Source: Cristatella mucedo
Lineage: Eukaryota > Bryozoa > Phylactolaemata > Cristatellidae
Reading direction: 5' to 3'
NCBI GenBank assembly: GCA_009760855.2
Contig: WPIO01000007.1
Span: 9,003,001 to 9,067,000, forward strand
Length of the DNA: 64,000 bases
The first letter of the stretch is position 1; the number at the start of each line of letters is the position of its first letter. Below the pieces are notes generated by a model. The model was not told the DNA's origin. It saw nothing but the letters and a program-made list of their open reading frames with translations, and searched no databases. The translations under genes and the position numbers were made by a program. Positions 2,966-63,790 of this stretch are shown here, piece by piece.

Positions 2966-3187
2966 TCACTCAGCCGTCCAACCTGGATAACTCTTCGGTA
3001 AATCCACCGGGTTAAGATAATATGGTGTGAGATAGATGTCGTCTTCGGCCGGGCAAACCAGTTTGTCGTTGGTGGTTAGAAGGCGCAAACATTTCCTGGA
3101 AGCTGGTAGCCATTCCGCATCTCTATTGCTCACCCAGTTGTTGAAAAGAAATCGCACGTATGCCACCATGATCTTTTTTGGTTTTTT
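2966..3187 (-). CDS. NOV-like gene, exon 20 (last one seen)
   Basis: The acceptor is TTGCTGTAG. The translation runs IMVAYVRFLFNNWVS, EWLPASRKCLRLLTTNDKLV and YYLNPVDLPKSYPGWTAE, then TGA at 2968-2966. It resembles the EYLxFIxxHL...LLTxxGYxxPxExxIHFSxxYxNPxD segment of NOV. Plant NOV proteins continue well beyond this point, so either the animal gene ends here or a donor (CCAG|GTTGGA at 2983, or CTGA|GTGATC at 2970) leads to exons I could not find. A minus-strand AATAAA at 2187-2182 would suit the first option. Confidence 0.8.
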   Translation of the reverse strand, partial: KKPKKIMVAYVRFLFNNWVSNRDAEWLPASRKCLRLLTTNDKLVCPAEDDIYLTPYYLNPVDLPKSYPGWTAE

Positions 3188-3281
3188 CTACAGCAATACA
3201 CAATTCCCATCGGCTACAGTGACTGAGAGGAAATTCACAAAAACATGTTAGTTTTACAAAAAGCCACTTAATGCTTGTTAC

Positions 3282-3469
3282 CTCCCAAGCATCGGACTGT
3301 AGTGTAGGTATAATATGGTCGTTAATGATCCCAGAGATTGTAGGAGCATGGACACCAAGAATCTGAAGCACCTCTTTAACCTGTGCATTGGCTAATTCAC
3401 TCTGACAGCCGAGAAGGTCCTTGGAGATGATAGGTAGATCGGACTCCAGTATGTCTAATAGGCTTGAAT
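3282..3469 (-). CDS. NOV-like gene, exon 19
   Basis: The acceptor is TTTTACCAG and the donor is GGGAG|GTAACA. LLDILESDLPIISKDLLGC and VLQILGVHAPTISGIINDHI match the LRxxxPSLL...LLxxLGVxxLSxxDIIxxHILP part of NOV. The exon runs from phase 1 to phase 0. Confidence 0.88.
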
Positions 3470-5072
3470 CTGGTAAAAATTAAAGACCTACTAATTCAAA
3501 CATTACTGACCTGTCATAGCCTAGACATACACTATCAATTGACATTGTCAGAGCTCAGAGCCTTGGAATACTGTGACATCGTTTTATAATAATGTGAACA
3601 TAACTTGCGAGATGCTAAATATATGCATTTTCGTATTTATGCCGGTAGAAAGGTAAAGGTGAGAATTCTAGAAAAAATAAAACACTGCGGATCGGTAGCA
3701 GGCAAGCCCAAAGCTACCATGCATAAATGAATGCGACATGATTTTAAAGTCACTTGATCATCAACTGGCTATACTAAAAAAAAGCTTCAACAGCTCGGGC
3801 AGACTTAATCAGGGCAGCAATCTATCTACTAATACATAAGCTTTAGGTGTTCCACGGGTAGACACATTTTTTTAGGGATCGGATCTTGGACTTTCCTGAG
3901 GTTGGGGGCCGGCTTATCGTGGCTTAAAAGGAGCTGCAGCCCCACAGTACTAACAAAACAAGATCGACAATTCACAGCACACACAGCACCCATTGGTGAA
4001 TGAGGTCAGCTTCATGTCAATGCTGGCTCTCAGCAACTGGACGGCGCTTGCCGTTAAAACAATGGACCGGGCTCTTGATTCAATACAGAGACTCTCATGA
4101 AATATGCTCACTCGAGTAACCATGGGTGCATGGCCGGAAAGAAGAGTTTCGGTCGGTAGGCTGGTCGCAAGTCTCCAAGCTTGCCGTCAACAGCTTGCCA
4201 CTATCTTGATGGTCATTTGCAGCCATGTACTTCCAAGATGCTACGTTAAATAGTTGAAGAAATGCGGATGCTAGTGCAAAGCAGACATTTTCCTTAAGCT
4301 GCCACCGATTACCGCCAGTTGCCAAGACAGAGAGCAGTACTTCTTGCAAGTCTCAGCAGAGGGAGTTTTATGGTGCAGGGCACCGGGCATGTTGAAGTTA
4401 GAATAACCAGCTATGAGCTTCTTGCCACACTCGTCCCTCCTGACGAAACGAAGCAGAGAGTTCTGCTCTATATACATGTAAATAGCTGAGCCCAATCAGC
4501 AGGAGCCTAGAGAGTGGTTTGGGTCGTAGAACATACGAGGTGATCCCCGATGATTGCTCTATCCACAGCCTGCATGCCTCTAATATGGGTACATTGCCTG
4601 ACATGGCTATTGGCTTTGAATGGTTTGCTACACTACAGAGATGCATTCTAACGACTGCATTCTGCCTCTCACGCAACCGATCAGCAAAAACAATCAGGTA
4701 TCCCTAGTGATTAATGCCCTATAGCAGAGCTCCTTATACCTACAATTTAGACGATGCCATGCCACGAAAGGCAAACAGCAGTAGGGATGAAACATATTAG
4801 GTATGATGAGCAATTGAATTGAATAATAGCGGCAGTCAATTACAGGTGGGTCGATCTTTACCAGACCACTTGCAATGCAACTAACACGTCTCAAATCAGC
4901 ACTGTGAATTGAGTCCATTCAAATAAAACAGCTTAAAGGCCCTTAAACAGATTCCAGCACCTGAAGCACTGCTGGATATGAGCAAAAAACATGCCAATAG
5001 CATGCTCAACACAGGTCAATAGGTTGCTATCTAAAAATGCCAGAGTTATGCAAGCGCTAGCTGCCGAATCAC

Positions 5073-5258
5073 CTTTCCTGTCATTAGCACCAAGTGGTAA
5101 GAAAACTGCCTGATTGTCACTAAGGCTAACGGTGCTCCCGTTGGAAAGTGAAAACAGTTTCATAGCTGCAATTGTTCCAATGGCTGATGATTGGTAGCCA
5201 TCACCTAGGAAGTGGTACATAGCTGACAACCAGACAGCAGAGTATTTTATGGGGAAGC
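5073..5258 (-). CDS. NOV-like gene, exon 18
   Basis: The acceptor is TTATTGCAG and the donor is GAAAG|GTGATT. YSAVWLSAMYHFLG and AAMKLFSLSNGSTVSL, then AVFLPLG, matches the WLxxL...LRxxPxFPLxDGxxxSLxEGxIWFP block. The frame stays open about 50 codons past the donor (to about 4936), so a longer exon is possible. This donor is the one that joins exon 19 in phase. Confidence 0.85.
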
Positions 5259-7671
5259 CTGCAATAAAAAGCACAATTATATGCTGCCAGCTCTGCACAT
5301 GTCGGCGATGCAAAATAGCAGTTAAAAAATAAAATTTCTTAACAATCAAGGTCAATATCCTCCAAGAATAATTATTACAAAATCAGGTGCAAGCCTATAA
5401 CCATAACAACAGACTCAGCACACCGCGACTCGATCATAGCATCCAACACAGTGTGTACCAGAGCATAACGTACGTCAGCATCTTCTATTTTGCCACGTGA
5501 CTGTCACGAAAGCTCAATACTAGAGAAAAGTATTGATAAAGTGTATACCACAATACTTGGGATCGACTGAATTATGCTCCGTCAACCATCACTGGAGTGT
5601 TTCCCACCATATAGAACACCGGCACCAATTATGTAACAACACATTTAGATAGAAAGATGGGCTGTGCTACAGAATAACAGTAGAGCTTGCCAAGCTGTAT
5701 GTTTTTACGTGGGAGTCCGGACTACTTAAAAAAACCTAACTGTATGCTACTCGTCAAGAGGGAGCCTTTGATTTATAAGACAGGTGCTCCATCAGGGATT
5801 CCACTAGCTATTTACAAAAGCATACACCATTCTTTTCATGTTTACAATCAGGACGATTTCGTTACATTTACTCACCTAGTCACCCATACAGTCACCCACA
5901 TATTCCTACACTATACCGGCCAGGGTAAAAAGCCCATAATGCCTCCATGCTTTTCCATGAAGCAGCTAAGTCGGTTGGAATTTTAAGGCAGCATCGATGC
6001 TTGCCTCTGGTGACGTGTCGATGCAAAACTAATCACACACATTCATTCTTTTGTAGAAGGAAAACATGCTTTCTCTTATACTTATCTGATGGTTACATGG
6101 CCTGGCGTTTTCGTAGAGGTGTAACTCACGTGCTGTCTTTTTGAAAATGGAAGCAGGTAGCCTTTTTGCAGGACCGCTGACATTTCCTATATGTCGATGA
6201 CAAGAGTTTAACCATTTGTTTTTAAATATAGCATTTTGGCTGTATCTGAATAGTAATAACAGCTATTTCACAGCTGCCCTGCTGAGCAGGAAATACTGCT
6301 AGCGATTGATATTCACCAGAAGTGTTTATCGTGCCGGAAAGATGTTTCAGATCGTTTAAAAGCACATATCACATACCAACTAGATGGCATACAGTTTCAC
6401 ATAATCCAATATGCCAGTAGATGTCTGGAACTTGTCAGCCGTCAAACACAAATCCCATTTTTACTCTAACTTTTGAGATTGGAAGACAACGGCTGCTTAC
6501 AGACAGGTGAGCATGTGTACAGATGTGAGTTCACTCACATACTTGCGAAATACTCATTCTGACAAATTGTTATCGATGTCTTTTTCTCTAGTTCTTGTGG
6601 CTCTCAAATGGTTTCTTGTGTATCAGCATGTTTTAAATCCTAAAGTAATACCAACTAAGCCTTAATAGAACTTTTTATGCAAGACTGATCTTTGAGATGC
6701 TGTTCAAATGGCAAAGAACTAATTAGGCTTTAGTGATGTGATTAATCGAAGCTTGAAGAACACTGCCACATTTTGCCAATCGCACACACACAACATCACC
6801 AATGATGTGCATAAAAATGAAGCTAAAATCTAAGGTTGTGGTAAAACATGGAACAGATCGCTTCTGGGTGAAAATGAGATTCTGCAATGGTTACGTGCAT
6901 ATGGACTGCCCCACCATGACTAAGAATGTAAGTTCAGCTGGTTTGGCTGCACGTGCATCTGCTGCCATACCCTAGAAAATCTACTCCCACATCAGTGACC
7001 GTATCAGCTCAGTATAACATGCAACTGCCAAGCATGTGTATCAAACCAAAACCTACGGGTCCCCAAAGTCGGCATCTAGTCCAAGGTGGTCAACAGAAAT
7101 TTATATACGATCTATTAAGAGATAAATGTGCAGCCAAGGCTTCTGTAACAAAACCATTGCGACTTGCATCGCTTTGTATCACGGAAAACCAGTGCAGGTC
7201 GGCAATACAAATCAATCTTTTCAGATTTCTCAAAAATATTTGACAACCATGCCGAGTCACAGCTCCATGTAAAATTAAAGTAAACGTCAGCTGATCGAAC
7301 GGCCTAATAAATATGGTAGCAGAAGAGCCTCAGCAACAACCACTCTCACTAGCTGTGGGCAATAATGAATTGTCTGCAACAGTACTTAAACCATGACCCC
7401 GGTCGTAAAGTACAACCACCTTCACCGTAAATCCCACATTTTCTTCATAGCATTGGCTTCGCCCATGAAAATCGTCCTATATATGCTAAAGCATGTTGTG
7501 AAGGTTCATATTATCACTAATCAGTACATAAGGTTCCTTTCTAGCCTAAGTGTAGGGCCTAGCTAGAATTTCCTCCTGGGACACTACAAAATATCAGTAT
7601 CAATAACATGCACAATTTCAGATGCATAAACAGGTAATGAATAATTCCTACGAATAAAGTATACGATAGTA
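5259..7671. other. Intron 17, left part: nothing recognised
   Basis: This AT-rich intronic sequence has only short frames. A decayed SINE-1-like piece (AGCAGAAGAGCC followed by CAACAACCACTCTC) is visible near 7.32-7.40 kb. Confidence 0.5.
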
Positions 7672-7675
7672 GTAG

Positions 7676-9141
7676 TGTAGCGCCCTGCTGGCCTTGGCTG
7701 AATTTTAGCGCGAACAAGAGCTGTTCGGCGGCGGGCTAGTGCCCCTTTGTCCTGGAGCAGTGAGCCAGAGAGGAGTGCGGTTAGAGAGGAAGCGCTTAGG
7801 AGCAGGCCAGGAAGCTCTGAGACGAGCGGCGGCGATTCGGCCTTTAGAATTGGTCCGATACTCGCGGAGGCTGCTGATAGATGTTGGCTGGCCTGTCAAC
7901 CCCCGCCTTCCCTCTTTCCAAGAAAGAATCGTCTGGAACCCATTCGCCATTCAAGCTGGACAGAGGGGACATTCCAGTGGCCTAGTGCCGGTATTAATTC
8001 CTCACCGTAATGGGCCATGGTGGCGGGCCCAATACCACTAAGCTCTTGCCCCATTGTCTCAGCTTAGTATTTAAGAGTCGAGCGACGCTCGATCTTGGTC
8101 TTTTGTCTTTTGTTCAGCTACTCTCATCGGCCTCGCTTCGACGCCGTCGGACTCATTTCTCTGAAAGCGAGGGAGGAGGGCGGGCTGTCCGCCGACGATG
8201 GACGGAACAGGACGAGACAGCTCTAAGAGGATTCGGTGGAACTCCACCGAACACGGTCGTATCGCGCCCGAGCTGGCAATTTTGTGTTCTTTCGTGTTTT
8301 GTGTGTTCGCGCTAGCACGTGGTCTCGGCATAGGGATTTGCCGGTGCGAGCTAGGCGTAGTTGGCGTCTGTGGAGCCCTAGTTCTCCGGGTAGGGTTTGG
8401 GCTCCGGTTCGCGCTTCAGTGTGGAGAAGTATTTCCTCAACAGGAGTGCTTGAGTTGGCGTGTGTGGAGTATTCCTGCCGCACTGGTGGAAACCGAGTTC
8501 TAGTTACCGGTCAGGGTTTAGACTCTGGTTCGGGCTCCGTCTATTTGGGTCGTTTCCCATTATACTCGTAAGCAGCCCCAGTGTGGAGAAGTATTCCCTC
8601 CGCAAGAGTGCTTGAGGTGGCGTGTGTGGAGTATTCCGGTCGCACTGGTGGAAACCGAGTTCTAGTTCACCGGTCAGGGTTTAGACTCCGGTATGCGCTT
8701 CAGTGCGGAGGAGTATTCCCAACGCAAGAGTGTTTACGTCGGCGTGTTTGGGGTATTCCCTCGGCACAGGTGGGAACGGATTCCTAGTTCACCGGTTAGG
8801 GTTTAGGGTCCGGGTCGCGCTTAGTGTGGAAGAGTATTCCCTCCGCAAGAGTGTTGGTGCAGTTGAGAACGTGCGAGGAGTGTGGAGATATAGCTGAACT
8901 AGACGCATAGCGACTTTGTGCGCTTGCGAATAAAGTTCAGTAAAATCCCCAATTTGTGTGTCTCGTTTCCGATTCACGCGGCGGACTCACGACCCCCTTT
9001 AGTAACAGTAAGCAGGTCAGCGCCAGAAACGCTCGTTTCGTGACGGCCAGCTTATTGCGCGAACTGAACGGCATTAGGCGATAGGCTACGCCGCTAGGTA
9101 AGCGACAGGTCAAGCCTACCCGCCGAGCCTTCGGCGTTACA
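7676..9141 (+). mobile_element. 5' LTR of a retrotransposon
   Basis: It begins TGTAGCGCCC and ends GCGTTACA. Flanking GTAG at 7672-7675 is repeated after the element at 10935-10938. TATTTAAG at 8068-8075 is a likely TATA box and AATAAAG at 8929 a likely polyadenylation signal, giving a U3-R-U5 layout of about 1.47 kb. The R region contains tandem repeats. It is much more GC-rich than the surrounding intron. Confidence 0.85.
8341..8865 (+). repeat. Tandem repeats inside the LTR
   Basis: About four diverged units of 115-170 bp start with a GTGTGGAGAAGTATTCCCTC-like segment near 8420, 8581, 8702 and 8823. Each holds GTTC(A)CCGG.TAGGGTTTAG-type sequence, and one contains TTAGGGTTTAGGGTCC. The units fall in the presumed R region of the LTR. 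Confidence 0.75.
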
Positions 9142-9144
9142 TTT

Positions 9145-10208: not shown

Positions 10209-10934
10209 TGTGGCGCCCTGCTGGCCTTGGCTGAATTTTAGCGCGAACAAGAGCTGTTCGGCGGGCTAGTGCCCCTTTGTCCTGGAGCAGTGAGCCAGAG
10301 AGGAGCGTCAGTGCGGTTAGAGAGGAAGCGCTTAGGAGCAAGCCAGGAAGCTCTGAGACGAGCGGCGGCGATTCGGCCTTTAGAATTGGTCCGATACTCG
10401 CGGAAGCTGCTGATAGATGTTGGCTGGCCTTCCTTCTTCCTTTCAGAGAAACGAGTGCCCGACGGCGTCGAGGCGCAGAGCCGGACCAAAGACAAAAGAC
10501 ACGAGGCAAGAGACAGAACGAGCGTCGCTCGACTCTTAAATACTTGGCTGAGACAATGGGGCAAGAGCTTAGTGGTATTGGGCCCGCCACCATGGCCCAT
10601 TACGGTGAGGAATTAATACCGGCACTAGGCCACTGGAATGTCCCCTCTGTCCAGCTTGAATGGCGAATGGGTTCCAGACGATTCTTTCTTGGAAAGAGGG
10701 AAGGCGGGGGTTGACAGGCCAGCCAACATCTATCAGCAGCCTCCGCGAGTATCGGACCAATTCTAAAGGCCGAATCGCCGCCGCTCGTCTCAGTGCTTCC
10801 TGGCCTGCTCCTAAGCGCTTCCTCTCTAACCGCACTCCTCTCTGGCTCACTGCTCCAGGACAAAGGGGCACTAGCCCGCCGCCGAACAGCTCTTGTTCGC
10901 GCTAAAATTCAGCCAAGGCCAGCAGGGCACTACA
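10209..10934. mobile_element. Folded-back right end of the LTR element
   Basis: 10209-10430 repeats the first 215-220 bp of the 5' LTR in direct orientation. It switches without spacer to 10432-10934, which is the reverse complement of LTR positions 7676 to about 8172. The element therefore ends in an inverted LTR start (GGGCACTACA) rather than a normal 3' LTR. The copies differ at few sites, so the rearrangement looks young. Confidence 0.85.
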
Positions 10935-12035
10935 GTAGTAATAATAATAGTAACAATTATATATTGCTGGATTAGCACACAAACAGAATTTAATCTCTAT
11001 ACACCTGCTTTACAACTTGCTGCAAGAGAATCAATACCTAAGAGGTGAGTGACATGCATGGTATCAAACATGCAAAAGCAAACAAGCATAATGTTGGGCC
11101 AGCATGATTATGCAAACATATAGACACTCGTGATCAACTGTTAGTAAGACCTCTGGCCAGTACCATATACTGAATCGTGCACACGTAGGCACGCAAAGCA
11201 TGCTCGAACAAAGAAAGATAAGTTCACTAGGGTACTGGAAGCTTAACAGAACTTATGTGTCTTTAGCTGAGACTTAAAAAAAAGATTCTGGCAGTGACCA
11301 TAGAATTGAGAGATGACTAGATGCTGAGTAGCGGCCGGTGCAAGAGCATAATGGAGCAGCAAGGCAGTCGGATAGGTAGGCAGGTGTAAGCAAGCGAAAT
11401 GACGTATAAGCCAGAATGAGGATCATGAACACGATTCGGTGCTTTATAGGGAGCCTTAATGATGTGTAATCATGAGTGGGCTTGATTAGCTCAGTAAAAT
11501 TAGTTGAACTCATGCTGCTGCCCGAAACAGGTTGATGCCTTCTGTGAGCAACAGATAAATTAAAGCTTCATATTAAATTCAGTCAAATCAGGGAATGCCG
11601 TGATGCCTGTGTGTAACAAGCATGAGACGCAGCTCTATTGGATGAGCAATAATTACACGTGTAATTATCAAAAGGCTACAATTTTTGGGAAGGTCTGGCA
11701 ATTTAGCGTTGCAGCCTGGTTGTGGTATCGGCTGAATTTATCTGAGAAATCTTGGAACCAGCTAGACTCTGAGTGGCTGTTATCGCAAGGTCAATTATTA
11801 AGACAGATTGGCATAAGGAGATGCTTAAAAAGTATTGAGAATGGAATTTTGAGATGTTTGGCTAAGACTCGAGTAAGTACATCCATGCATACTGTCATTG
11901 CCAATAGAATTTGTGAAGTCTAGGTATCATATGTGGTTGCTAAAAAAATAAGCTCACTGTAGGAAGAGATGAATTATTTTTTAGCCAAGAGGCCAATAAA
12001 ATCAGCTGCTTGCATTTAAAATGGTCATCACTTAC
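10935..12035. other. Intron 17, middle: mostly unique, old LINE piece
   Basis: The only coding trace is a minus-strand frame at 11274-11513 with LRLPIKHRIVFMILIL and LTPAYLSDCL. It resembles the C-terminal reverse-transcriptase region of LINE-1f but is heavily decayed. Confidence 0.4.
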
Positions 12036-12266
12036 ACACATTGTCATGCTGATATTCTTGATACACAGCTTTCAGCAGTTCGACAGCAGTGAAGCAGTCG
12101 AGTTTCTTTACACCGAGGCTCATCAGAAGCTCTTCGCCGAGTCCATCAAAGATACGTGGCATGACGTAGAACAGGCCGAGCTTGCTGGTAAGTATCGACA
12201 CAGGAAGGACTGACTGTACCTCCCTTGGGCATATGATGACCTCCGATGGCAATTTCCAGCTGATAA
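12036..12266 (-). CDS. NOV-like gene, exon 17
   Basis: The acceptor is ACGTTATAG and the donor is GTGT|GTAAGT. The exon is phase 1 at both ends. SWKLPSEVIICPREVQSVL, then SKLGLFYVMPRIFDGLGEEL and LMSLGVKKLDCFTAVELL, corresponds to the W-x-PSxVLx...LGLxFLxxxIxxxxxLxxALGIxxY segment of NOV. The acceptor was chosen because it alone gives the correct phase with exon 16. Confidence 0.9.
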
Positions 12267-16145: not shown

Positions 16146-17240
16146 ACATTTGGCAGTAAGATACAAGCAGCAGCAGTAATGCTGAAGGCACGAACAAGAT
16201 GGGCAAATCAATCCTACAACATAACACTGCATAAGCAACACGGATTTGGTACAACAAGCATGGATCTGCCCATGATGGGGCAAAGTTGGTATCAGCATTT
16301 GTGTAATAAAACTCGCAATAACTCACCATCTTTCCCCCCTTGTATAGGCATCAGTGGGGTACGACACAGCTGCTCTAGTATTCCCTGAGCAACAGGTTCA
16401 AAGAAGCCCGAGATCTCACCGGGCAGAGGTGTGAACTTCAGAAAATAAATCGTGGCGGCTATCTCGTCCAGCCCGGTCAGACCCTGCAAAACATCAACGC
16501 CGAACACAGCTCAGTTGCACAGTCAGCGGTATCGTCTGAATGCGCAGTCAGCGGCACTGTCTAAATGCACATGATCCGTGTATGCAAATAGCATCGATTT
16601 AGAGAGCATTGCAAAATGGACTGCAGCAGGGCCATCCATATCTTTCTACTCGCAGTTTGCAAATAAATTTGGTATACTAGCTATGATGAGCAAGCATGAC
16701 TTGCTAAAAAATCGAGTCTCAATAACAGATGGCCAGCAAAAGGAATTATGTCTCCACAAAAAGAACCCATACTTGAAGAAAATGTTCGTTGATCTGAAGC
16801 AGGAATAGCTTTGTTGGTGGGCAAAAAAAGCATTCAATCAATGCAAACGTTTAACTAATGGTAATTGTGATATGTAAGGTATCATGTAAGAGTAATAGTA
16901 TGACACAATTTGTCAAAATAGAACGATTTAGTTTATTGCATGAATGATCAACGAGTTCTCCAAAAGAAAACCAATCGATCATTTAACAGCTGTAAGAGGC
17001 ACTGGCCAACTGGATCATCCCAGGCCAGGCTAAGCACACACGTTTTATGGGAGACCAGCATCATAGATTGAGCAAGATGCTTTGTAGAACTCCCAGAAAT
17101 AGACCGCTAGCGAGTGCCTCATTGCCAAATTGGTTGGTTGCTGAGGTTAGCTTCATTAGCTAAGGAGCATCCAAATACTGAACATTTGGCAGTAAGATAC
17201 AAGCAGCAGCAGTAACGCTGAAGGCACGAACTGGATGGAC
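16146..17240 (+). repeat. Direct repeat pair of about 55 bp flanking exon 16
   Basis: The block starting ACATTTGGCAGTAAGATACA and containing GCTGAAGGCACGAAC is found at 16146-16202 and again at 17186-17238 with one or two changes. The exon at 16327-16483 lies between the copies. Confidence 0.65.
16327..16483 (-). CDS. NOV-like gene, exon 16
   Basis: The acceptor is GTTTTGCAG and the donor is GATG|GTGAGT. IYFLKFTPLPGEISGFFEPV and CRTPLMPIQGGKD match the YLSFVPLxGEVxGFF...xxCLxxEG block of the family. The exon runs from phase 0 to phase 1. Confidence 0.92.
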
Positions 17241-17520: not shown

Positions 17521-17831
17521 ACATCTGCAGCCTGCACAAGACCGGCCAATTCTATCGTATAGCCACAATTCTATGTACTTTTAGTTGAAAAAACATGGAA
17601 GCAAGAAAGACAGAATAAATAGTTTGACTATTACATTGGCAGTGAATGCCAGTAGAGACTACACATTTTTGCTTTTGTTTACGGGTAATGAGAAAAAGCC
17701 TTAAGGCTTTACAAAGCATAACTTATATGGGTTTTCATCTGAGCATTTCGTGAAGTCTTGGATGACAAGGCTGCTTTTTAGAGGTTGAACACTAGATACA
17801 GAATAATAATAATGGATTTGATAAAAATAAT

Positions 17832-20726: not shown

Positions 20727-20839
20727 CAAGAAAAGCTCCCTCGATTTCATGAATGCACGAGGAATTGCTTCACGCAGCCACTCATTCCATCGGCTATCGT
20801 GCCGGACGTCTTGTCTCGAAGATGGGATCTCGAAGTCAG
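20727..20839 (-). CDS. NOV-like gene, exon 15
   Basis: The acceptor is CTTTTGAAG and the donor is CTTG|GTAAGT. DFEIPSSRQDVRHDSRWNEW directly continues exon 14 and matches the GDFVLPSSREEVxxDSxWNQWL motif. It continues with REAIPRAFMKSRELFL. The donor is followed within about 30 bp by an old LINE-1f fragment in the same orientation. Confidence 0.94.
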
Positions 20840-22151: not shown

Positions 22152-22221
22152 CTTGAAGGACAAACTTGAAGCCATAGTCCCGCAAGGGTAGATAGGCAAA
22201 TGTTTGCTGCTTCTTCGGTTT
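22152..22221 (-). CDS. NOV-like gene, exon 14
   Basis: This is a 70-bp exon with acceptor ATTTTCAG and donor CAAG|GTAGCA. It encodes FAYLPLRDYGFKFVLQ after a short Lys/Gln lead-in, the near-diagnostic VFAFLPLRTYGLKFIIQ motif of NOV proteins. It ends in phase 1 and is completed by exon 15 to give Ala. A LINE-2f 3' end lies just downstream, at 21735-22060. Confidence 0.94.
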
Positions 22222-24619: not shown

Positions 24620-24709
24620 CTTGTCTGGCTTCGACAAGTACTGTTCATAATGCTTGGCGTTGGAAAATACCGGAAACGCCAGTGATAGTTCCGTCGAATC
24701 TATATCGAC
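24620..24709 (-). CDS. NOV-like gene, exon 13
   Basis: The acceptor is AGTTGCAG and the donor is CAAG|GTAGGG. The exon has 30 codons in phase 0. DSTELSLAFPVFSNAKHYE matches the TEISLAFPL strand of NOV. It is too short to recognise alone, but it is fixed by phase and order. Confidence 0.88.
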
Positions 24710-24929: not shown

Positions 24930-25052
24930 CTCCTCTGCTGTACCAAGCTGCAGACGAGAGACAAGCCATAAGTCCGAATCGGTTCCACTGTGCAGTTGAA
25001 GCAGGTGCTTACCGACATCTTGTCTCCTCATGACGACTGTGTGCTTTTGAGC
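24930..25052 (-). CDS. NOV-like gene, exon 12
   Basis: The acceptor is GTTCTTCAG and the donor is GAGGAG|GTAATA. The exon has 41 codons in phase 0 at both ends. HTVVMRRQDVG and LQLHSGTDSDLWLVSRLQL match the VxMRRExxGxxIxxVxxGKxxxxWLVVSxKL segment of the family. A second, partial copy of this exon lies about 1.6 kb further along the gene. Confidence 0.88.
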
Positions 25053-29663: not shown

Positions 29664-29811
29664 CTTGATAACAAATGTTATCTGCTGCAGACGATGAAGA
29701 AAAAGAAGGAGTATTGGTTTAAAATCCAGAAAACTACTTGTCAATGCTTGAACGCGACAGTGGTCGTCGTTGCTCTCATCTTTGAGTGGTAGAATGATGG
29801 TGGTCTTCCAT
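29664..29811 (-). CDS. NOV-like gene, exon 11
   Basis: The acceptor is GGCGGCAG, with a poor pyrimidine tract, and the donor is CAAG|GTAAGG. WKTTIILPLKDES, then FLDFKPILLLFLHRLQQI, corresponds to the WxTxIxLPLK...LxPSLLLFLHRL strand-helix block that closes the GHKL domain. The phase (one base in, 0 out) fits exons 10 and 12. Confidence 0.92.
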
Positions 29812-30613: not shown

Positions 30614-30791
30614 AGTGACCCTTTGGGCAAATGCTCTTTGGGTGGGCTTGGCGGTTTGTTTGACACCCATGCGGGTAATATGTATCCGATGTTTCCCTGG
30701 CTTCGATCAAAACATATGTGGTAACCGTTAGAGTGTACTTCCGGTCTGTCGGTCACGGTGAAGACAGACTTAAAACCAATGCCTTTTTGAC
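30614..30791 (-). CDS. NOV-like gene, exon 10 (second glycine box)
   Basis: The acceptor is TTTTTCAG and the donor is CACT|GTAAGT. The exon runs from phase 1 to phase 2. GQKGIGFKSVFTVTDRPEV, HSNGYHICFD and IGYILPAW are diagnostic of NOV and sacsin-type GHKL domains. A Pro/Lys-rich loop of about 18 residues follows. The split glycine at its start completes ATT GGT from exon 9. Confidence 0.95.
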
Positions 30792-31966: not shown

Positions 31967-32242
31967 CAATATAGCCTTGTTTGTGCTTGCCTTTTGTAGA
32001 CATCCCAATGGCAGATATGGCTCTGATGTCTTTTTCGCTGAATCCTTCTTCATTGTTGTACAATGCTATAGAGCTGTGATCTATTACAAACAGCAGAGCA
32101 GGAGAAGTATCTTTGCCATAGTGATTGTCATCAGCATTCTGTATCAACTCCAGCACAAAGTGTGTGTTACTGTTATACAGCTCTCTCGACAATCTCTCCA
32201 AGCTGTTTCCCAGTTGTCTCTTTAAATTTAATGTTGCTTCAC
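31967..32242 (-). CDS. NOV-like gene, exon 9 (GHKL ATPase N-box)
   Basis: This exon carries the first half of the HSP90-type nucleotide-binding fold. LGNSLERLSRELYNSNTHF leads into VLELIQNADDN, the N-box whose Asn and Asp coordinate Mg-ATP in this superfamily. IALYNNEEGFSEKDIRAI supplies the first glycine motif (Asn replaces the usual Asp, as I recall for NOV proteins). STKGKHKQGYIG runs to the donor ATTG|GTAAGT. The acceptor is ATCTTAG. The key residues appear intact, so ATP binding is likely. Confidence 0.95.
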
Positions 32243-35280: not shown

Positions 35281-35518
35281 TCTCTTCGTGCGAGCAATCG
35301 ACGTTATATTTTTTTCTTATGTCGTTGATTACAGCAAGGCAGTGGTCATCGCCGGTCCTAGTTGTTGCAGTCTGACCATGTTCAGTCACCGCATCATCAA
35401 CTGCTAAGCTGATATCGTGACGGGCCTCCTGCACCTTGTTGACATCTGCAGCTATGTTTCCTACATCGCTAGGAATATGAGCTTCTGAAGAACCATCCAT
35501 ATCTTCACTGATAGTAGG
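35281..35518 (-). CDS. NOV-like gene, exon 8 (just before the ATPase)
   Basis: The acceptor is CTTTTGTAG and the donor is GAGA|GTAAGG. The exon runs from phase 0 to phase 1. An acidic, variable first half (VDDAVTEHGQTATTRTGDD) precedes CLAVINDIRKKYNVDC, which is the conserved helix before the GHKL fold (compare xxVIxSIRRDEFGV in NOV). The split codon A|GT joins exon 9. Confidence 0.88.
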
Positions 35519-36571: not shown

Positions 36572-36790
36572 CTGCTTCCATAAGGTGTCAGCGACTTGCA
36601 TTGAGGTGTCATCGAGCACTGTCTGAGGCTCCAGCCTGCTGTCGTACGGCGCCGTCCAGCAGCTGATGCCCAGCACCAGGCCGAGTCTCTCCAAGGCCCG
36701 GTTAAGCCCTCGCTGTACACTCATGGCATGCAACAACTCTTCAGTCTTCGTCTGGGAACCGATCGCATCGGCAAATGGACCAATGAAGAC
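36572..36790 (-). CDS. NOV-like gene, exon 7
   Basis: The acceptor is GTGACGCAG and the donor is AAGCAG|GTGCGG. The exon has 73 codons in phase 0 at both ends. LERLGLVLGISCWTAPYDS matches the LHEIGLSLGIxxW motif of NOV proteins. The donor sequence is weak, but the frame closes four codons later, at a TAA. Confidence 0.82.
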
Positions 36791-38089: not shown

Positions 38090-38457
38090 TTGCCGTGCAA
38101 CGCGCTGTGCAATCTGTGGTGGCAGTAGCAAGATGGCAGTGAGAATGAAATCCGTCAAGGGGGCATACAGAGTGCCGTCGTCCAGTTGCTGAGATCTGTA
38201 GCTGCCAATGCTCTGCGAAGCCATTTCGGTGAGCTTCCGCTTAACACTCGATGCCAGCAGCAGTGACGGGAGCCCGGTGATTCCCTTGACGCAAGCGATG
38301 CCAGTCAAGTGGGCTGCAGCTCCACGACCATCAGCCTTGGCCACACAAGAGGCAAACGTGTTGACGTCGCACCTAGCCGCTGGTATTCTCAGCAGCCTGC
38401 CGTCGCCAGTAAGAATGACCCGCAATCCAAAGCTGGCTCCGTCACCAAAACTATTGC
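38090..38457 (-). CDS. NOV-like gene, exon 6
   Basis: The acceptor is GTTTTTAG and the donor is CGGCAA|GTAAGT. This is the longest internal exon (368 bp), phase 1 to phase 0. It contains LRVILTGDGRLLRI followed by VNTFASCV, equivalent to the LVTxDGKxIRID...SATVDSFL block of NOV. It ends in a hydrophobic stretch with ILTAILLLPPQIAQRVARQ. Confidence 0.88.
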
Positions 38458-38754
38458 CTAAAAACGTTTCACATTTTTCAGAAATGCCTACGGAGCTTTT
38501 TGAGGGTCACGGTGAAATCTGGACACGTGCCAGGCGAAACGCATAATGCTGACTGATGCAATGTGACTAAAATGCACTGTTCTACCATGCTCTGCTAGGC
38601 CATTATTGACAGCAAGATCCTGGAATGGCTGTAATCACAGTTGCAGGCTGCACCAGTGTAAGACCGGCACCCTTGCCGATTTAAGGCAGCAAACAAAAGT
38701 CTAACATTGATATAGATACATGTCCATCCTACTGCTAAGCAACACACTTCAGCA

Positions 38755-43262: not shown

Positions 43263-43453
43263 CATCTTGCTGCACTTCTTTGTGGTTTTCCATAATAAAC
43301 TTGGTTAGATCACCAAACTTCTCATAAAAAACAATTTTCCACTGCGTCCAGCTGCTGACATCCTCCAGAAGAGGTGTATTTACAATACACTGCAGTGCAG
43401 CACGACGATCGTGGCTAACTGCAACATTGGAGGCATCATCTTGAACGTTGGCT
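43263..43453 (-). CDS. NOV-like gene, exon 5
   Basis: The acceptor is TTTGTAG and the donor is GATG|GTGAGA (phase 1). Residues CIVNTPLLEDVSSWTQWKI and FYEKFGDLTKFI match the PLLEDLxxWSxWxxVF...GSLxEWL segment of the NOV family. The split glycine codon G|GC is completed by exon 6. Confidence 0.85.
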
Positions 43454-43890: not shown

Positions 43891-44087
43891 CTTATGCATG
43901 CCTCTTCAAACAGGAGGGGTTGCTCCGTGCTGCCACTGCCGCTGGGTTGGCCAGCCTGGCTAAGCAGAGACGCCATCGAAGAAGCACCTAGCTCTTGCAA
44001 GGTGGTGAAGCCAAACTGAGCCAATAAACCAGTCGACAGCTCATATTGCTCGGCCTGAACGACAGCCATTTGCACAGCATCACACGA
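43891..44087 (-). CDS. NOV-like gene, exon 4
   Basis: The acceptor is GATCAGGCAG and the donor is AAG|GTAGGT. The exon is 197 bp, phase 0 to phase 2. It encodes an amphipathic stretch (ELSTGLLAQFGFTTLQELG) and then a Ser/Gly-rich linker. It was chosen because it bridges exons 3 and 5 exactly in phase and is the only open frame there with good sites. Confidence 0.72.
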
Positions 44088-44464: not shown

Positions 44465-44631
44465 CTTGGCATAACGACACAAAAACGCAATAAACGATCC
44501 ATGGCCACAATCAACAAAATCCTTGACCTGTAAAGCTTGCTTCGTCTGTTCCTCGAAGACCTTTAGTGCCTCAAGCGAAATGAGCTCAACCTTTCGGCGT
44601 GCCAGACTTCTTTTGACTGTATCAAAAACCT
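44465..44631 (-). CDS. NOV-like gene, exon 3 (after a missing link)
   Basis: The acceptor is TTCTTTCAG and the donor is AAG|GTATGA. The exon starts with two bases of a split codon and ends in phase 0. The translation contains VFDTVKRSLARRKVELISL and then VKDFVDCGHGSFIAFLCRY, which corresponds to the FxxLGHGDFLxFLEK-like segment of NOV proteins. The required incoming phase (1) differs from the outgoing phase of exon 2 (2). Confidence 0.8.
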
Positions 44632-48220: not shown

Positions 48221-50315
48221 TTAAAAGAGCGGAGCTTCTAGTCCAGCCGCACACTTAGGGTGTCCTATGAGCAGCAGTTCAGGTTCATCGTCGTTTAGTT
48301 TCAAGAAATTTTCCGATGTCCAGGATCGAATGTCGGCAAGGCAAGCATGCAGTTTATCAGTTGCTGTAGCAGATTCCGACGTTTTGAATGAAAAATACAT
48401 CTGACTATCTTCAGCAAAAAAGTGATATCCTATTCCGTGGGCCTCTATCACTTTTCCAAAAGGTTGAGTATAAATGGAGAACAGCAATGGACCGAGGACG
48501 GACCCTTGAAGGATCCACAAGTCTGATCGATGAGACCTGAACCCTACACAACACGGATTGAACACGATCAGACAAGAACGATTTAAACCACGCCAGTGAC
48601 TCGACTGCCAGACCGATCGTTGCTCCAATCGATCAAGTAGGACATCGTGATCAATGGTGCCGAAGGCAGCTGACAGATCTAGCTTCGCTAGGGCAATGGC
48701 ATTCTTGTCATCGCTGCTGCATAGGAAGTCATTGGTACCACGGAGGAGAGCAGTTTCAGTAAAGTACTATCGCTTGAGCCCCGATTGAAATTTTTCTGAC
48801 ATTTCACTCTTTTCAATGTAGTAGTTGCTTAGCAACAATTTTTCAAGAATCTTTGGAAAAAAGGAACATGGGAAACTGGGCGATAGTTTGCAAGAACCTC
48901 TGTATCTAATCCAAACTTTTTAAGTATCGGTCTAACGATTGCCGATTTCAAGGACTTGGGTATAACCCCTTTTTCCAGAGAAGCATGAAAAATCTCGGTT
49001 ACGGCTGGGCTAAGTTGGTCTGCCACTGAAGACCACAGAGATAATGGTATAAGGTATTCAGGAGACAGGTGCTTTTTGCTAGACCTTATTAATATAGGCA
49101 CATCACATGCAGAAACCTCGGAAAATCTTTCAAGGAAGTTTACAGGTTGTGATTCCGCAATTGCTTTAGTCGGAGGGGGATTTATGGAGTCATGAATGTG
49201 CACAATGTTTCTAGTAAATAAGGCTGAAAACTTCTCGGCTGAGCCGTTAAAATCTGGGGAGTCAGGCCTCTCAGCATTGGCCAGTAAATTGTTTACCGTC
49301 TTATAAATCTGTTTTGGGTCTGACTGGCACGACTTAAGTTTTCGAGTGAAAAAAGAAGCCCTGGATTTTTTAAGCTTTCGGGTGTAGACTCGAAGAGAGT
49401 CTTTGAGATTGACTTGATCTACGTAAGAACCCGTATTTCCTAAAATACCGCTCAACCCTTCGCTTAACACGACGCATCTTTTGAAGTTTTTTCTAAATTG
49501 AAAGGAGTCTCCGTGACTCTGTAAATGGACAGAATGTACGAGAGCATGCTTGTCAAGAGCACTTCTAAGTGTGTTCACTACATCAGTGACCGTATGGAGG
49601 CTGTCGGTCGAGTCTGGGTGCAGATCAAGAAGACCTGCATCACATGCAGATTTCAAAAATCTGTCTTGGTCAATGCTTTTAAAGTCAGGTCGCTGGACAA
49701 AGTCGGCATTACCCTGTACGTCCAAAAAACAGAGCAACAACAGTAAACGAGATTAACAACGATCAAAGAGGGTCAGCGGACACATTGCACGGTCAGTGCA
49801 GCGGAATTCTTTAGTGATCACGAGATCCAGGATATGGCCACCGACGTGAGTGGTATGATTAACATGTTGGACCAAACCAAAGTTCTCCAGACGGTAAAGA
49901 AATAAGCAGACCTGGCTGTTGCTAGGATTGTCAAGGTGAATATTGGAGCCTCCTTCAATCAGTAAAAGCCTGTCACACGAATATTTTAGCAAGGAACTCC
50001 GAAAACTCCTCTACAATTAAGTTTAGACAGCTAGAAGGAGGTTGGTACATCACAAGTGTGAAGCACTGTCTTTGATGAGGACCTGATTACAACTGAATCA
50101 AACGATGGTCCATTCGAAAAACTGCCTATCTTATAGCCAAACGATTCATGAATAACAGTTGCAACCCTTCCACCAATCTTGTCAGATCGTATGGACTGAA
50201 AGAATGAGAGCATAGGTGGGGTGGTCTCGGATATACAGCTACCTGAGCAGGGCAGCATCCACGATTCGGTGAGCAGAAGTTGTGTGCATGTGTGCGCCTG
50301 TGTTTGGGTGTGCAC
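48221..50315 (-). mobile_element. LINE-1f endonuclease plus reverse transcriptase, 3'-truncated
   Basis: From right to left: an AP-endonuclease region (LTESWMLPCS, GGRVATVIHESF, then THVGGHILDLVITKEF), a linker, and the RT fingers (SAIVRPILKKFGLDTEVLANYRP in part, 48829-49740). The RT palm is at 48221-48628 (LQGSVLGPLLFSIY; the catalytic FADD reads FAED). Stops and frameshifts separate the parts. The thumb and 3' tail are missing. Confidence 0.8.
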
Positions 50316-50574: not shown

Positions 50575-51540
50575 ACGGCAGCAAACTTTCTTAAACTACA
50601 TGATGACAAAATCAACCGACTAGTTATGGGCTAACCATGTGTGATTCAGCAATTGTAAAACCTAACACTCAAAACCGGCTCTTCCAGCATATCTCCTGCT
50701 GAATCGTCACGTAATCTAGATGTCTAATTCCAAAGTGAACTTTCATTAGACGACCAGATCAGCTTCACAGTCAAGTCTACCTACTTTCAGCTACATAACA
50801 TTGCTAAAAGTGGGGCTTGTTTACAAAGGGAAACCTTACCTATATTGGTCCATGCATTTATGACAACCCATCACGACTTCGGAAACTCACTGCTTGCTGG
50901 TCTATCGACCTGTGCAATCAGGTGCTTACAGTTGGTGCAAAACGCGGCAGCTAGGCTTGTATGTCGTAAGCGCCATAGTCGCCTTATCACACTATTTCTA
51001 GCTGACCTGCATTGGCTCCCTGTCAGGCAACTCATCGACCTCAAGGTTGTATCACTCACTTTTAGGTCCTCTCACTCTTTTACTCCAGCCTACCTATCAG
51101 ATCTACTCCCACACCAGGCTAACAATCGTAACACCCAATTTCCAGAATCTAGTCCTTTACATATAACTCGTACGAACCTAAAATCCTTTGGAGACCGTGC
51201 CTTTAGTTTGCATGCTCTCAAAGCGAGAACTCACTTCCACTTGTGTCGTGAAATCCCCTGCCTTGACTGCATTTAAAAAGAAGCTACCACGCATCTATTT
51301 ATTACAGCATTTATTGGGTCCTTGTGATTCGTCCTATGTGTGTTGACACTGTGCATGCTGCCACTTACCATATTTGCATGAGGACCCGGTGCAGGTCACC
51401 TCTAACCATGTTATGCTTGTTGTCATTGAGCATGCTACCACTAAGCATGCGATCATGCATCCTTTGCAGCAAATGCAAAGTGCCTAGAAAGAGATTTGAG
51501 TTCTCTGAGGGTGCTATAACAAATATATTATTATTAAATG
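50575..51540 (+). mobile_element. LINE-1f 3' fragment, diverged
   Basis: FLKLHDDKINRLVMG at 50590, then SLDDQISFTVKSTYF and the frame from 50845 with LADLHWLPVRQLIDLKV and NLKSFGDRAFSLHALKA. The hairpin AAGTGCCTAGAAAGAGATTT and an AT-rich tail end it near 51540. Confidence 0.8.
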
Positions 51541-52640: not shown

Positions 52641-53104
52641 GCCTCTGCCGTAGCACTACTGGTAGTGCCAACAGCAGAGATGTGGAAAGAAGGGCATGGT
52701 ATTGCAAGTTAACGCAGCGCTTGATAGGCAGGCAATCATCAGAACATTGACCTTTTTGTGAGTAAGCTCTTTGTCGTTGCTGCTGAGATGCTGGCGTGCT
52801 AGCGGTGGTGTTTGCCAGGCCAGTTGCAACCGTGGCTTCAGCAGGCTGACCGTGGCTGCTATTTGCAGAACTATCGTCGGCAGACAAATGAGCAGAGCAC
52901 AGCGCAAGCTGGAAGAGTTGACTAAAACAAAGAACACGGGAATAATCAGTTAAATATGCCACCTAATTGGACCAGACTAGAAGAGCACGTCGGTCCAGAA
53001 CATCGCTTGCTCAAGGAGCTTGATTCCCATTCGAGAATACAATCAGGAAGAATCGCCGAAGCTCTCAACAGGACCTTTGAGATCCTGATTGTCTGAATTT
53101 AGCC

Positions 53105-58002: not shown

Positions 58003-58301
58003 CTTGCTAGAGGATCCTTGCTGATCTCACGCAAGGCATACATCACTTTGTCCTTCGACCGCAGGTTGGTTATGTAGTTCATGCAGCACTGAAGTGCATC
58101 CTGCAGTACCTCAAAGGGTTGCATATGCATGTATTTGCGCCGAAGCACCACTCCTCTATCGGTCCGCTTGTCGAGTGCATCTGCTAAATGGCGCTTCATT
58201 GATTGAAGATGTGCTTTTAACTCGTCGTGCAGCTCCAACTTTATGCGTTCTCGAGCTTCCCTCAAAGATGCATTTGCCTCTCTTCTGGCCCGGCTGATTT
58301 C
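58003..58301 (-). CDS. NOV-like gene, exon 2 (charged coiled-coil region)
   Basis: The acceptor is TTGCAG and the donor is AAG|GTAAAA. The exon runs 299 bp from phase 0 to phase 2. The translation begins EISRARREANASLREAR and is very rich in Arg, Glu and Lys, which suggests a coiled coil. It ends with a helix, VLQDALQCCMNYITNLRSKD. Joined to exon 1 it reads SIPLLIQ-EISRARRE in frame. Its end phase does not fit exon 3, so another small exon must follow it. Confidence 0.68.
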
Positions 58302-59585
58302 CTGCAACATACAAAACCGGAAATCGAGCTCCTGAAAGTATTAAATCACAGTCGTCACTCTCTAAGTGTTCCACATGTATCACTTTTTTACAACCTGAAT
58401 ATCGCTTGGTGACAATAAGTCGCTAGAGTGCAACACATTAATTTCATTTCGTTCACCAGCACACAGCAAATACGTTAGCTTACAGAAGCTTTAACTTACA
58501 CGGTGACAGATCAAGCATTAAGTTCTTCCAAATTTGTCTCTATACAAAATTTGATAACATGTAAAAAACGAACCACCTTTAAGAATAGAAACTGCATGAA
58601 CCATATTGTAATTAGGAGTGGATGCATACTTCAAAACTAAATGTGGCTAAAGCTATATCACCTTATGGAAAAAAGCAAGAGAATGTAGTCTATTAAGATA
58701 GCATAATTAATGCTATATACAGTAACCCCTTAGAATAGCACAACCCTAAACAAAGTCACCCTACATCAGTGCCGACTGGCATGCGGTGTGGACCTGTAGT
58801 TCTGGCTAGGATATAGCCGAACCGGCAAAGCTGGCACTATGATAGTTGGTGCCCGGTGATGCAGCTAAGATGCAGAGAGACATAAACGAATTAACTAGAA
58901 ATTCCTAAAAGTCTGTAAAAAATAAGCTTGATAAAGGGGTTCGTGAGGCAAAATAAAGATTGCATATTAAAAGGCACATCTCCAAATTCGGTGTCTTAGG
59001 TACATCTCCAGATTCTTACGTCATTCTACTATTGAGCATTCGAGATACAAGTAATCGCTAATGGACTGAAAGTAACCTTAGATCAGTCGTGCAGAAGTTA
59101 CCTTCCTCCGTGGAAGATTGCCAAATCTCGAGTGCACGCATCAAGAACTATAAGACTAAAAATGAAAATCTACGCAAAGAATCATAACCGATAGAGCTAC
59201 ACTCATCCAAATTATAAGCGAGCTCTGAGATGCAGGTAGTGTCAACTAGGGGCATAAGATTTCTGAGCAGATGAACACGATTTCTCAAAGGAACAACAGA
59301 TTCTGGCAAGTGCTCACACTACGGTATAGATTTACACTGGCATTGAATATCGTTATAGAGAGATGACCGTTGTAAACAGACTAGTGGCAGAAAATGAAGC
59401 AACCAGACTGGGGACCACTAGGGTAGATTAGATGAGGGACTACCGTACTCAAGCAGTCATTACACATAAATGCTGCCATGAACTATGTCTTCCTCAAAAT
59501 ATTGAGGGGGTTATGGGCCGGCTCACGGCCCGACATGGCACTGAGTTAAGGTCACTAAACTAGAATTATATAGTATGAGGGGGAA
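58302..59585. other. Intron 1, middle: nothing recognised
   Basis: AT-rich sequence with short frames only. Confidence 0.45.
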
Positions 59586-59587
59586 AA

Positions 59588-61485: not shown

Positions 61486-61489
61486 TCTG

Positions 61490-62710
61490 ATTTCATTTCG
61501 ACTATGTGTTCCAGAAATCGTCCCTTCCTTATAATGGGTGATTTTAACATTCATTTCGATTACCCAACTGACTCCTTAAGTGCCAAAATTTGTAAATTGA
61601 CAGATTTACTTCACCTTTGGCTCATACATGACTCCACTCACAAAAAAGGTCAACACACGATCGAATATTCTCCCGAGATGTATGCTGCCAACTCGTGCTG
61701 TTACAAAGCTCAGCACATCTGGCTACATGCAGATCTCGGTCAGTTTTTGGCTTGTGTCCCCTAGGCATAATTATAAAAAAAATACAATTCATTTGTATAG
61801 TCCCCAAGAGAACTTAATCTCTATGCTGGCACTTCACATATGCCTCGGGGCTCGAGCCCACGACCTCATCTAGACCTCGGTCGGGGCGAGCACCTTAACC
61901 GCTGAGCCATAAAAGATCACTTGGGATCGTTAAACCCTAAGACCATTGCCATTAACGGTGTTCACACATAAATATCTTACTCGCCCTCATGCTCAGTCCT
62001 CGGGAATGACCATTCCTATCTGGAATGTTAAAACACAATAGCTGATGTAATGGACGAACTTGCTCCTCAAACTAAGCCACTTCATACACACTCACCAAGG
62101 TGGCTTATAGCTTACAGCAGACATTAAACTAGCTAGGACTTCTAAGAGAAAGCTTGAGAAATAGTACACAAGAAGAGGACGGACTCTCCATCCATTGGCA
62201 AGCGAGGACTATTGTACATCGTTTTCTTAATTATATAGAAATAGTGGAACGACAAGCGCACAATCTAATGTCTGCCATCAACTATCTCCTTAACAGATCC
62301 GAGGTGAGCTCCTTAGTGACTGATCCTTGTGGCAATCAACCAGATCCTTTTTCTTCATTCTTTTTCGGCAAGATAGATAAGAGCCGAGATTCTATACTCA
62401 AGTTGAAATCTCCACTAGGCTCCTCATCCTCGGCTCCTTGCTTTACCTCAATGTCCATCTGCAAGCCAGCTATAAGTGACTTCGTCTCAAATCTCATCAC
62501 CAAGCCTAAGACGACTACTAGCTCTATAAACCCCATAGCTCCTTCTAAAATGAATAGAAGTGCAGCTGCACTGCTTAATTAACATAATAAATATGCCCTT
62601 AACCTCATGTCATGACCCTTCATCCTTGAAAAAGGCTATTGTCAAGCCACTGACTATGAAGTCAACACCAGATCAAGAGCGTTTTTGGCTATTGACTGCT
62701 TTCAAATGAT
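61490..62710 (+). mobile_element. LINE-1f endonuclease to RT start, interrupted by SINE-2
   Basis: The AP-endonuclease piece PFLIMGDFNIHFDYPTDS, then LLHLWLIHDSTHKKGQHTIE, lies at 61504-61764. After the SINE, the PWYT/RWL-like region and a linker frame (62154-62582) with FSSFFFGKIDKSRDSIL follow, then KKAIVKPLTMKSTPDQERF near 62630. The fragment ends about 135 bp from the exon 1 donor. Confidence 0.75.
61786..61912 (-). repeat. SINE-2 inserted in a LINE
   Basis: Plus-strand order TTTGTATAGTCCCCAAGAGA, ACTTAATCTCTATGCTGGCA, GGGGCTCGAGCCCACGACCT and ACCTTAACCGCTGAGCCAT. It splits the LINE copy at 61490-62710. Confidence 0.8.
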
Positions 62711-62846
62711 GATTTGCCGCTTTGCGATCGTAAATTGAACTATCCTAGCATAGCTGCTACGACCTAGATCTAAGCGAAACAAAAGTGGTGGCGTCCACCG
62801 AGCCAAGAAAGAAGGCATCGACACAGCTGTGCCGGCGTTCGCCCAC

Positions 62847-63572
62847 CTGAATGAGCAGCGGGATGCTGCCGATCATGACGCCCAGTCGAAAATGGTCGTC
62901 CTTGCAGCCGTGAGCTTCGGCCAGCTTGTTCATGAACACGTCGACCTTTAGCCGACCTTTAGCCTCCTCGTCGCGACAGCCGGGATCGTCGAGGCATGCC
63001 CTCAGGCAGCTGATGACGTCGGCTGGCCAGAGCACGGGCACGGCCCCGTCCGACGGGCACTTGAACAGCTTGTAGACGAGTGGCATCTTGGTCAGCGGGC
63101 CGATGCCCAGCTCGTCGAAGCTGCCTCGCGCCTCGGGGGCACTCTCGGCCAGCCGCTGGCCGAGCTCGTGCACCGTGCCGACGGGATTAAGCCGGTAGGC
63201 GTGCACGTACACCTGTATCCGGCTCAGCTCTCGCTGCAGCTGCTTGAGACGCTGCAAGTCGGTGGCGTATTTGACCAGCGGCAGCTGCTTGCAGCTGAGC
63301 CTCGCCAGCATGAGCTGCTCGACGACCTGCACGGACACGTGCTTGCCCTCGAGGTGCAGCTGCCGAATCGAGTCGGCAGCGAGCCGGTCCAGATCGGCGA
63401 TTGTGACCACGTGACTGCTGTTCCCACGGCTGCCGCGGCCGCCGTCGGTGTGGTCCGCAGCGGCAGCAGAGCTGAGCTGGCCCGCCGACGTAGCAGCGGC
63501 GCCGGCCGTCGCCGGTTGCAGCACCGGCCGCTGTCGCAGCCGCTGCTGCTGTGGCTGCCAAGCATGCTGCAT
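62847..63572 (-). CDS. NOV-like gene, exon 1 (N-terminus)
   Basis: The exon has 242 codons and starts at the first ATG downstream of the TATA-like box. An in-frame TGA lies about 35 codons upstream of this ATG, so the reading frame does not extend through the leader. Residues 1-55 are Gln/Ala/Gly-rich and probably disordered. From about residue 60 (VVTIADLDRLAADSIRQL) the chain is helical. FDELGIGPLTKMPLVYKLF and DHFRLGVMIGSIPLLIQ resemble the N-terminal NOV segments that I recall from plants. The exon ends in phase 0 at CAG|GTGGGC. It is GC-rich compared with the later exons, as is common next to a promoter. A long frame continues past this donor to 62757, so use of the donor is inferred from the match to exon 2. 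Confidence 0.78.
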
Positions 63573-63790
63573 TGGTGCAAGAGACCGAAACGCCCCACCG
63601 ACGGGAGCTGTGGAAGTGCTTGCCTTGCTCAACTGCCGAAGTCGCGCGACGATTTGAGCGCCCACACTTTGTCAGATAGCTGGAAAGTCTTCGTCGAATT
63701 CGTCTGCAGGAAAGGCGAGCACGAGCGACTGACTGCTCGGCACGACGGCGTCTTTACGTCTTCTGCAGCCACCGCAGCAACAGCTCGCGA

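Follow-up and report, generated by a model that had tools for sequence, protein, structure and literature searches.

The window analyzed here is a 64,000-nucleotide stretch of one contig of the bryozoan Cristatella mucedo (positions 9003001–9067000; assembly of 572 Mb in 688 contigs), and it carries on its minus strand the larger part of a NO VEIN (NOV) gene with a GHKL-type ATPase. An earlier note, made from the letters of the window, had taken the DNA for an animal genome, which is borne out by Wnt-family matches at 48 places in the assembly (best E value 3.6e-60), several of them on the window's contig. The NOV-like gene it proposed is likewise real, as profile matches and colinear bacterial homology attest, while its 20 exons across 2966–63770 become 21 in our model, running from 63572 down to 2983. 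These exons are joined by GT-AG introns with agreeing phases and give 1,522 codons without an internal stop.

The gene continues beyond the window. A genome-wide search with the NOV_C profile returned one match in the 572-Mb genome (4.9e-14), on the gene's strand and 13.5 kb past window base 1. Five extra exons, reaching up to 13.9 kb beyond that base, complete a gene of 26 exons with introns up to 8.1 kb, which encodes 2,552 amino acids (aa) in a single frame with a final stop only. In the full protein, NOV_C (PF13020) is matched in exon 26 at 6e-15, with 55.5 bits against a cut-off of 22.1. Read from the sequence, the model is confirmed as one NOV-family protein that the window truncates.

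The ATPase and NOV Family Membership

The alignment to Pfam/InterPro-type models that the earlier note had proposed as a check places SACS, P_loop_sacsin, and NOV_C all above cut-off. Pfam SACS matches the ATPase in one stretch (4.5e-14) and NCBIfam P_loop_sacsin does so at 2.9e-20; among solved structures, those of sacsin (5v44–5v47, E values 0.0035–0.0059) come nearest in sequence, followed by mitochondrial HSP75. The N-box LELIQNADDN is intact, with E899 and N903 present, as is the second glycine box (GxxGxG), which reads GQKGIGFKSVF. The supposed integrity of N-box and glycine boxes holds for these two but not for the first glycine box, where the sequence is NNEEGF rather than the classical DxGxG. 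Because the first box lacks DxGxG, we assign a sacsin/NOV-type GHKL module, in which ATP hydrolysis is only putative.

A single SACS-type GHKL ATPase upstream of a C-terminal NOV_C establishes, at the level of domain matches, that the bryozoan gene belongs to the NOV family, of which it is an ordinary-looking, complete animal member. The family assignment of the earlier note therefore stands on both its ATPase and NOV_C; it had missed that the gene leaves the window, that NOV_C lies outside it, and that the body of the protein resembles the bacterial protein TmtA. For the N-terminal part (aa 1–788), the PADLOC families gave no match at E≤0.01, and no Pfam match that passes its cut-off falls there either.

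Homology to Bacterial TmtA

The body of the protein (aa 868–1522) matches the PADLOC TmtA family PDLC03972 at E = 7.4e-84, over residues 7–652 of 654 and profile positions 23–642 of 1302. All eight PADLOC families listed for the NOV body are TmtA. The same profile also matches the animal NOV_C region (positions 1183–1291 of 1302), so that body and tail together extend across most of it. In the C. mucedo genome PDLC03972 is matched at five places, of which four belong to the NOV gene and the fifth to an exon of a sacsin. We take TmtA to be the protein of the Tiamat system. Tiamat is reported as PADLOC-predicted in the available portion of one paper (PMC13321033) and listed among systems of unknown mechanism in that of another (PMC12926258).

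When bacterial and archaeal genomes were scanned, three relatives emerged among 17 candidate stretches: Peristeroidobacter soli and Pectobacterium aroidearum (loci L001 and L002) and a Pseudomonas metagenome-assembled genome (L003). Their proteins, of 1,523–1,605 aa, are TmtA by PADLOC and contain Pfam SACS and NOV_C ("Protein NO VEIN, C-terminal"). Pairwise identities with the animal window protein, in descending order, are 32.1% (619 alignment columns), 29.9% (649), and 27.3% (692), and the three are 33–40% identical to each other. The glutamate and asparagine of LEL(I/V)QNADDNHY, together with NNExGF and GxKGIGFKSVF, are invariant across the animal and all three bacterial homologs. From the ATPase on, the order is common: a GHKL domain with QNADDNHY, NNExGF, and KGIGFKSVF, a long middle, a low-complexity linker, and NOV_C. 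The bacterial proteins start at about aa 850 of the animal protein, which has an added N-terminal part of about 850 aa; in bacteria there is extra sequence after NOV_C, and the bacterial NOV_C is distant from the animal copy in direct comparison.

Searched through 398 Pseudomonadota genomes, PDLC03972 matches 284. Among the matches listed, the weak ones are mostly to the profile's end or to frames of about 635 aa, presumably of HSP90/HtpG size, and more than 400 profile positions are matched at one place in five of the 398 (G003, G055, G067, G071, and G222). With the NOV body as query, nine of the 398 genomes give a match.

The NOV_C Tail

The tail retains an ExK motif of the kind found in PD-(D/E)xK nucleases, E2484-V-K2486, in a column shared with the bacterial EVK. 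D2468, in GLPYD, was picked by eye as the candidate catalytic Asp; it lies 16 residues before E2484, and the bacterial Asp, in GFD, 14 before its Glu. No PDB sequence match was found for NOV_C. The tail domain is NOV_C/DUF3883, and DUF3883 is called a novel restriction endonuclease domain in the available part of PMC3710099. The animal and bacterial tails are joined via the curated NOV_C model and PDLC03972 rather than by direct likeness.

Comparison with Sacsin

Sacsin, represented by PDB 5v44–5v47 and in this genome by ATPase exons at C111:2727636-2775597 (nine matches, several repeats) and C331:2170285-2173888 (three matches, possibly one module), shares with NOV an N-terminal SACS-family ATPase that resembles that of HSP90. 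It differs in its N-box, NADDAxA versus NADDNHY in NOV. Over the ATPase, NOV is 47–53% identical to the three TmtA proteins and 32–37% identical to the sacsins of its own genome. Sacsin and NOV are also separate in ATPase trees. In a tree of 25 rows (31 less six second copies of identical places), NOV and the three TmtA proteins form one group (92/86). In one of 19 rows, made by removing six long rows, NOV, TmtA, and locus L004 group together (99/99; inner order poorly supported, 82/69), with the own-genome sacsins outside; L004 has SACS and no NOV_C within its frame. The profile used to pick rows was seeded with NOV and L001–L003, which biases toward retrieving these sequences, though not toward grouping them together.

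A viral-contig record (L005, 5734-10497) encodes a protein with two GHKL repeats like those of TmtA/NOV, adjoining a 1,203-aa frame; it looks like a sacsin-like bacterial gene.

Bacterial Gene Neighborhoods

Directly downstream of TmtA in all three loci is a gene with NERD and UvrD-helicase domains (L001 10482-12221, L002 10616-12319, and L003 10602-12317), which overlaps TmtA in L003; the two genes possibly form a two-gene system. The Pseudomonas locus also contains a Gabija GajA/GajB pair upstream of TmtA (2233-5383; 2.1e-234 and 2.3e-188). Among more distant plasmid relatives, eight were examined from the 22 matching plasmid records, and half of these eight have defense-like neighbors: qatA/qatB in one, a DNA methyltransferase in another, helicases and a methyltransferase in a third, and helicases with a nearby restriction endonuclease in the fourth. 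No neighbor gene named for defense was found beside the other four. These neighborhoods fit a defense-island gene, which is not proof of each protein's role.

Exon Structure

The gene was built from stop-to-stop frames on both strands, with the minus strand read closely, using a small codon and splice-site model followed by correction by eye. Exon boundaries (Table 1) were partly picked for phase, and several were set by hand; the agreement of phases therefore cannot count as independent evidence, and the odds of a stop-free reading, 10^-26 against random intron pieces of equal lengths, are biased by the same selection. The model is supported independently of phase because bacterial homology falls in order inside its exons. 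When the three bacterial homologs were searched against the window by tblastn, 16 high-scoring segment pairs had E<0.1, all of them on the minus strand, within model exons, and colinear; they cover 7 of the 12 body exons (10–21), namely 10, 11, 15, 16, 18, 19, and 20. Exons 12 and 17 were matched weakly and exons 13, 14, and 21 were missed by this search, and there are weaker off-exon matches on both strands. A reversed-window control gave two segment pairs at E<0.1, of at most 34 bits, versus 99 bits in the real window.

The exon 7 acceptor and the donors of exons 21 and 23 score low. The low-complexity exon 3 was taken from the automatic model and is retained tentatively because the phases only agree with an exon at that place (in-phase 2, out-phase 1); its content is unremarkable. 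The first 351 residues, from exons 1–2, have no second place in the C. mucedo genome.

Two exon candidates, 41194-41548 and 62339-62578, were dropped since direct joins are in phase without them. For the same reason we discarded fillers of the automatic model at 60139-60059, 54929-54906, 51483-51369, 51266-51235, 30065-30023, 28809-28746, 27314-27292, 14375-14224, 14103-14081, 9537-9396, and 9184-9120.

Table 1. Exons of the C. mucedo NOV gene, in window coordinates.
Feature	Position	Strand	Basis and remarks
Exon 1, aa 1–242	62847..63572	-	Gene model; ATG at 63572 taken as start, with the frame still open to 63671
Exon 2, aa 243–352	58003..58331	-	Gene model
Exon 3 (tentative), low-complexity aa 352–409	52752..52921	-	Gene model, phase need
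Exon 4	44465..44631	-	Gene model
Exon 5	43891..44054	-	Gene model
Exon 6	43263..43453	-	Gene model
Exon 7, weak acceptor	38090..38487	-	Gene model
Exon 8	36572..36790	-	Gene model
Exon 9, linker into ATPase; bacterial homologs begin near its end (~aa 850)	35281..35518	-	Gene model, alignment
Exon 10, GHKL N-box (E899, N903) and NNEEGF box	31967..32242	-	SACS match; L003 protein matched by tblastn at 3e-23
Exon 11, second glycine box GQKGIGFKSVF	30614..30791	-	SACS match, tblastn
Exon 12	29664..29811	-	Gene model; tblastn E 2.3
Exon 13	24930..25052	-	Gene model
Exon 14	24620..24709	-	Gene model
Exon 15, FAYLPLRDYGFKFVLQ	22152..22221	-	Gene model, tblastn
Exon 16, ADFEIPSSR, end of GHKL-transducer region	20727..20839	-	Gene model, tblastn
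Exon 17	16327..16483	-	Gene model; tblastn E 0.47
Exon 18	12036..12266	-	Gene model, tblastn
Exon 19	5073..5258	-	Gene model, tblastn
Exon 20	3282..3469	-	Gene model, tblastn
Exon 21, last in window, weak donor	2983..3187	-	Gene model
Exons 22–26, beyond window	window-relative -209..-354, -3309..-4533, -4630..-5277, -8949..-9383, -13234..-13871 (NOV_C, stop)	-	Reading of adjoining DNA

Other Elements in the Introns and Flank

The exon 18–19 intron contains an inverted repeat of 436 nt, 97% complementary, with arms at 7667-8102 and 10508-10943 and 2,405 nt between them; it looks like a foldback or long terminal-inverted-repeat element. Remains like those of long interspersed nuclear elements (LINEs) lie in introns at 48224-49752 (minus strand) and at 46523-47167, 50728-51276, and 17782-18189 (all plus strand). 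The frame at 48224-48766 is a reverse transcriptase (Pfam RVT_1, 5.5e-12); the other four frames of the window that were scanned have no Pfam match. Outside the window, a LINE-like frame at -2335..-896 looks longer. A 21-nt tandem repeat of 4.9 copies (27908-28009) occurs in the exon 12–13 intron, within a long open frame on the plus strand. No Rfam match at the gathering threshold and no ARAGORN match was obtained in the window.

Possible Function of the Animal Protein

GHKL enzymes bind ATP, and this binding closes a dimer. The reading that we favor, whose chances we put at about even, is that NOV is a eukaryotic branch of the TmtA family and that the animal protein, from the sole NOV gene found in the genome, is a clamp gated by ATP that carries a nuclease-like tail. 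ATP binding would close the HSP90-like GHKL dimer, together with its transducer, and the long arms of the middle region would form the clamp. Closure would then license nucleic-acid binding or cleavage by the NOV_C tail, with the two tails possibly brought together on the nucleic acid, as in MutL. The N-terminal part of about 850 aa, added in the animal protein, may perhaps serve in sensing, localization, or adaptor use. On this basis we infer ATP gating, nuclease activity, and a role in nucleic-acid surveillance, possibly an immune one.

Several observations weigh against the clamp reading. With the usual Asp absent from the first glycine box, ATP turnover may be weak. The far middle of the protein is poorly conserved, since alignments of the full protein stop early or shrink, ending at aa 1554 with L003, at aa 1797 and 24% identity with L002, and covering just 156 columns with L001. 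In the tail, each of four alignments places D2468 outside the bacterial Asp column, and animal exon 26 scores just 2.3 bits against a profile built from the three bacterial NOV_C domains. A structural model of the bacterial NOV_C from three sequences has a predicted local distance difference test score (pLDDT) of 59; its element order fits the alpha-beta-beta-beta-alpha-beta core of restriction endonucleases, and Foldseek found no match to it at E≤0.001, with SwaI, Hjc, and SPARDA chains appearing among ribosomal and tudor chains. The model's likeness in fold to restriction endonucleases is a hint only.

The TmtA label is also a broad one, because a sacsin ATPase segment of the same genome (153 aa, stitched from three exons) matches TmtA models too, with 108 bits for PDLC03965, its best match, and 50 for PDLC03972; the corresponding values for a NOV segment of 151 aa are 76 and 157.5, with 139 for PDLC03966. 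The profiles span sacsin-like and NOV-like proteins, so an ATPase match alone is no proof, and specificity for TmtA over sacsin would rest on the colinear body, NOV_C, ATPase identity, and the ATPase trees. These trees cover the ATPase alone, and their sacsin rows fill under half of the columns. Plant NOV is a developmental gene, and its role need not involve defense. Finally, the defense label comes from filing by PADLOC, and the branch of TmtA actually tested against phage may differ from the homologs compared here.

Among the alternatives, a more specific version of the clamp reading would make animal and plant NO VEIN retained relatives of the Tiamat protein, the animal one still an ATP-gated nuclease acting against viruses or mobile elements, in which the first 850 aa would act as a eukaryotic sensor or adaptor. 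We consider this unlikely.

It is similarly doubtful that NOV is a sacsin-type co-chaperone, in which the GHKL domain would bind ATP and clients and NOV_C would be an inert relic or a protein-binding tail. Such a role would suit the SACS and P_loop_sacsin matches, the nearest solved structures, and the weak direct resemblance of NOV_C to the bacterial tails. However, NOV has one SACS match where the C111 sacsin locus has several repeats (9 of the 12 sacsin matches), ATPase trees and identities separate it from its own sacsins, its tail keeps ExK, and no DnaJ or HEPN family turned up in the Pfam scans.

Kinship within the GHKL family also speaks for a MORC-like factor of chromatin or the nucleus, which would use ATP to clamp nucleic acid and would compact or silence without cutting; this would fit the plant developmental role. 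In the accessible part of one paper, which itself deals with a NOV gene of a coral symbiont, plant NOV is described as a nuclear factor for deciding cell fate (PMC12289216), and an acanthocephalan NOV transcript is reported, in the available text of a second, to be female-biased and positively correlated with body size (PMC12690905). The tail's ExK and the absence of any zinc-finger family in the Pfam scans argue the other way, and we find this reading rather improbable. That the exons belong to separate transcripts or to a decaying gene, as the long introns, exon 3, and a few weak splice sites might suggest, is very improbable given a single frame through 26 exons and bacterial homologs that span exons 10–20 in order.

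Significance for the NOV Family

The name NOV goes back to a vein defect in plants, and plant NO VEIN (Arabidopsis NOV) is the name source of the C-terminal Pfam family PF13020 that the animal protein matches. The animal name wu:fj29h11 presumably denotes a zebrafish gene, judging by its form. In the available portion of PMC12690905 this gene (as Wu:fj29h11) is named as the animal NOV, a link by name, and no metazoan homolog is said to be characterized, in agreement with the earlier note's view that animal NOV has no described function. Our literature search, to which subscription journals were mostly closed, found no paper joining Tiamat with DUF3883, GHKL, sacsin-like, or Hsp90, and none among the matches listed joins Tiamat with NO VEIN or sacsin.

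Membership of a named family would by itself be a modest result. The resemblance of the body, and the Pfam family of the tail, link NOV to a bacterial protein filed as anti-phage, which yields a testable hypothesis of function and may turn an open function into a direct test, with E899, N903, D2468, E2484, and K2486 as candidate residues. NOV would thereby be an added candidate among eukaryotic proteins with kin in bacterial immunity.

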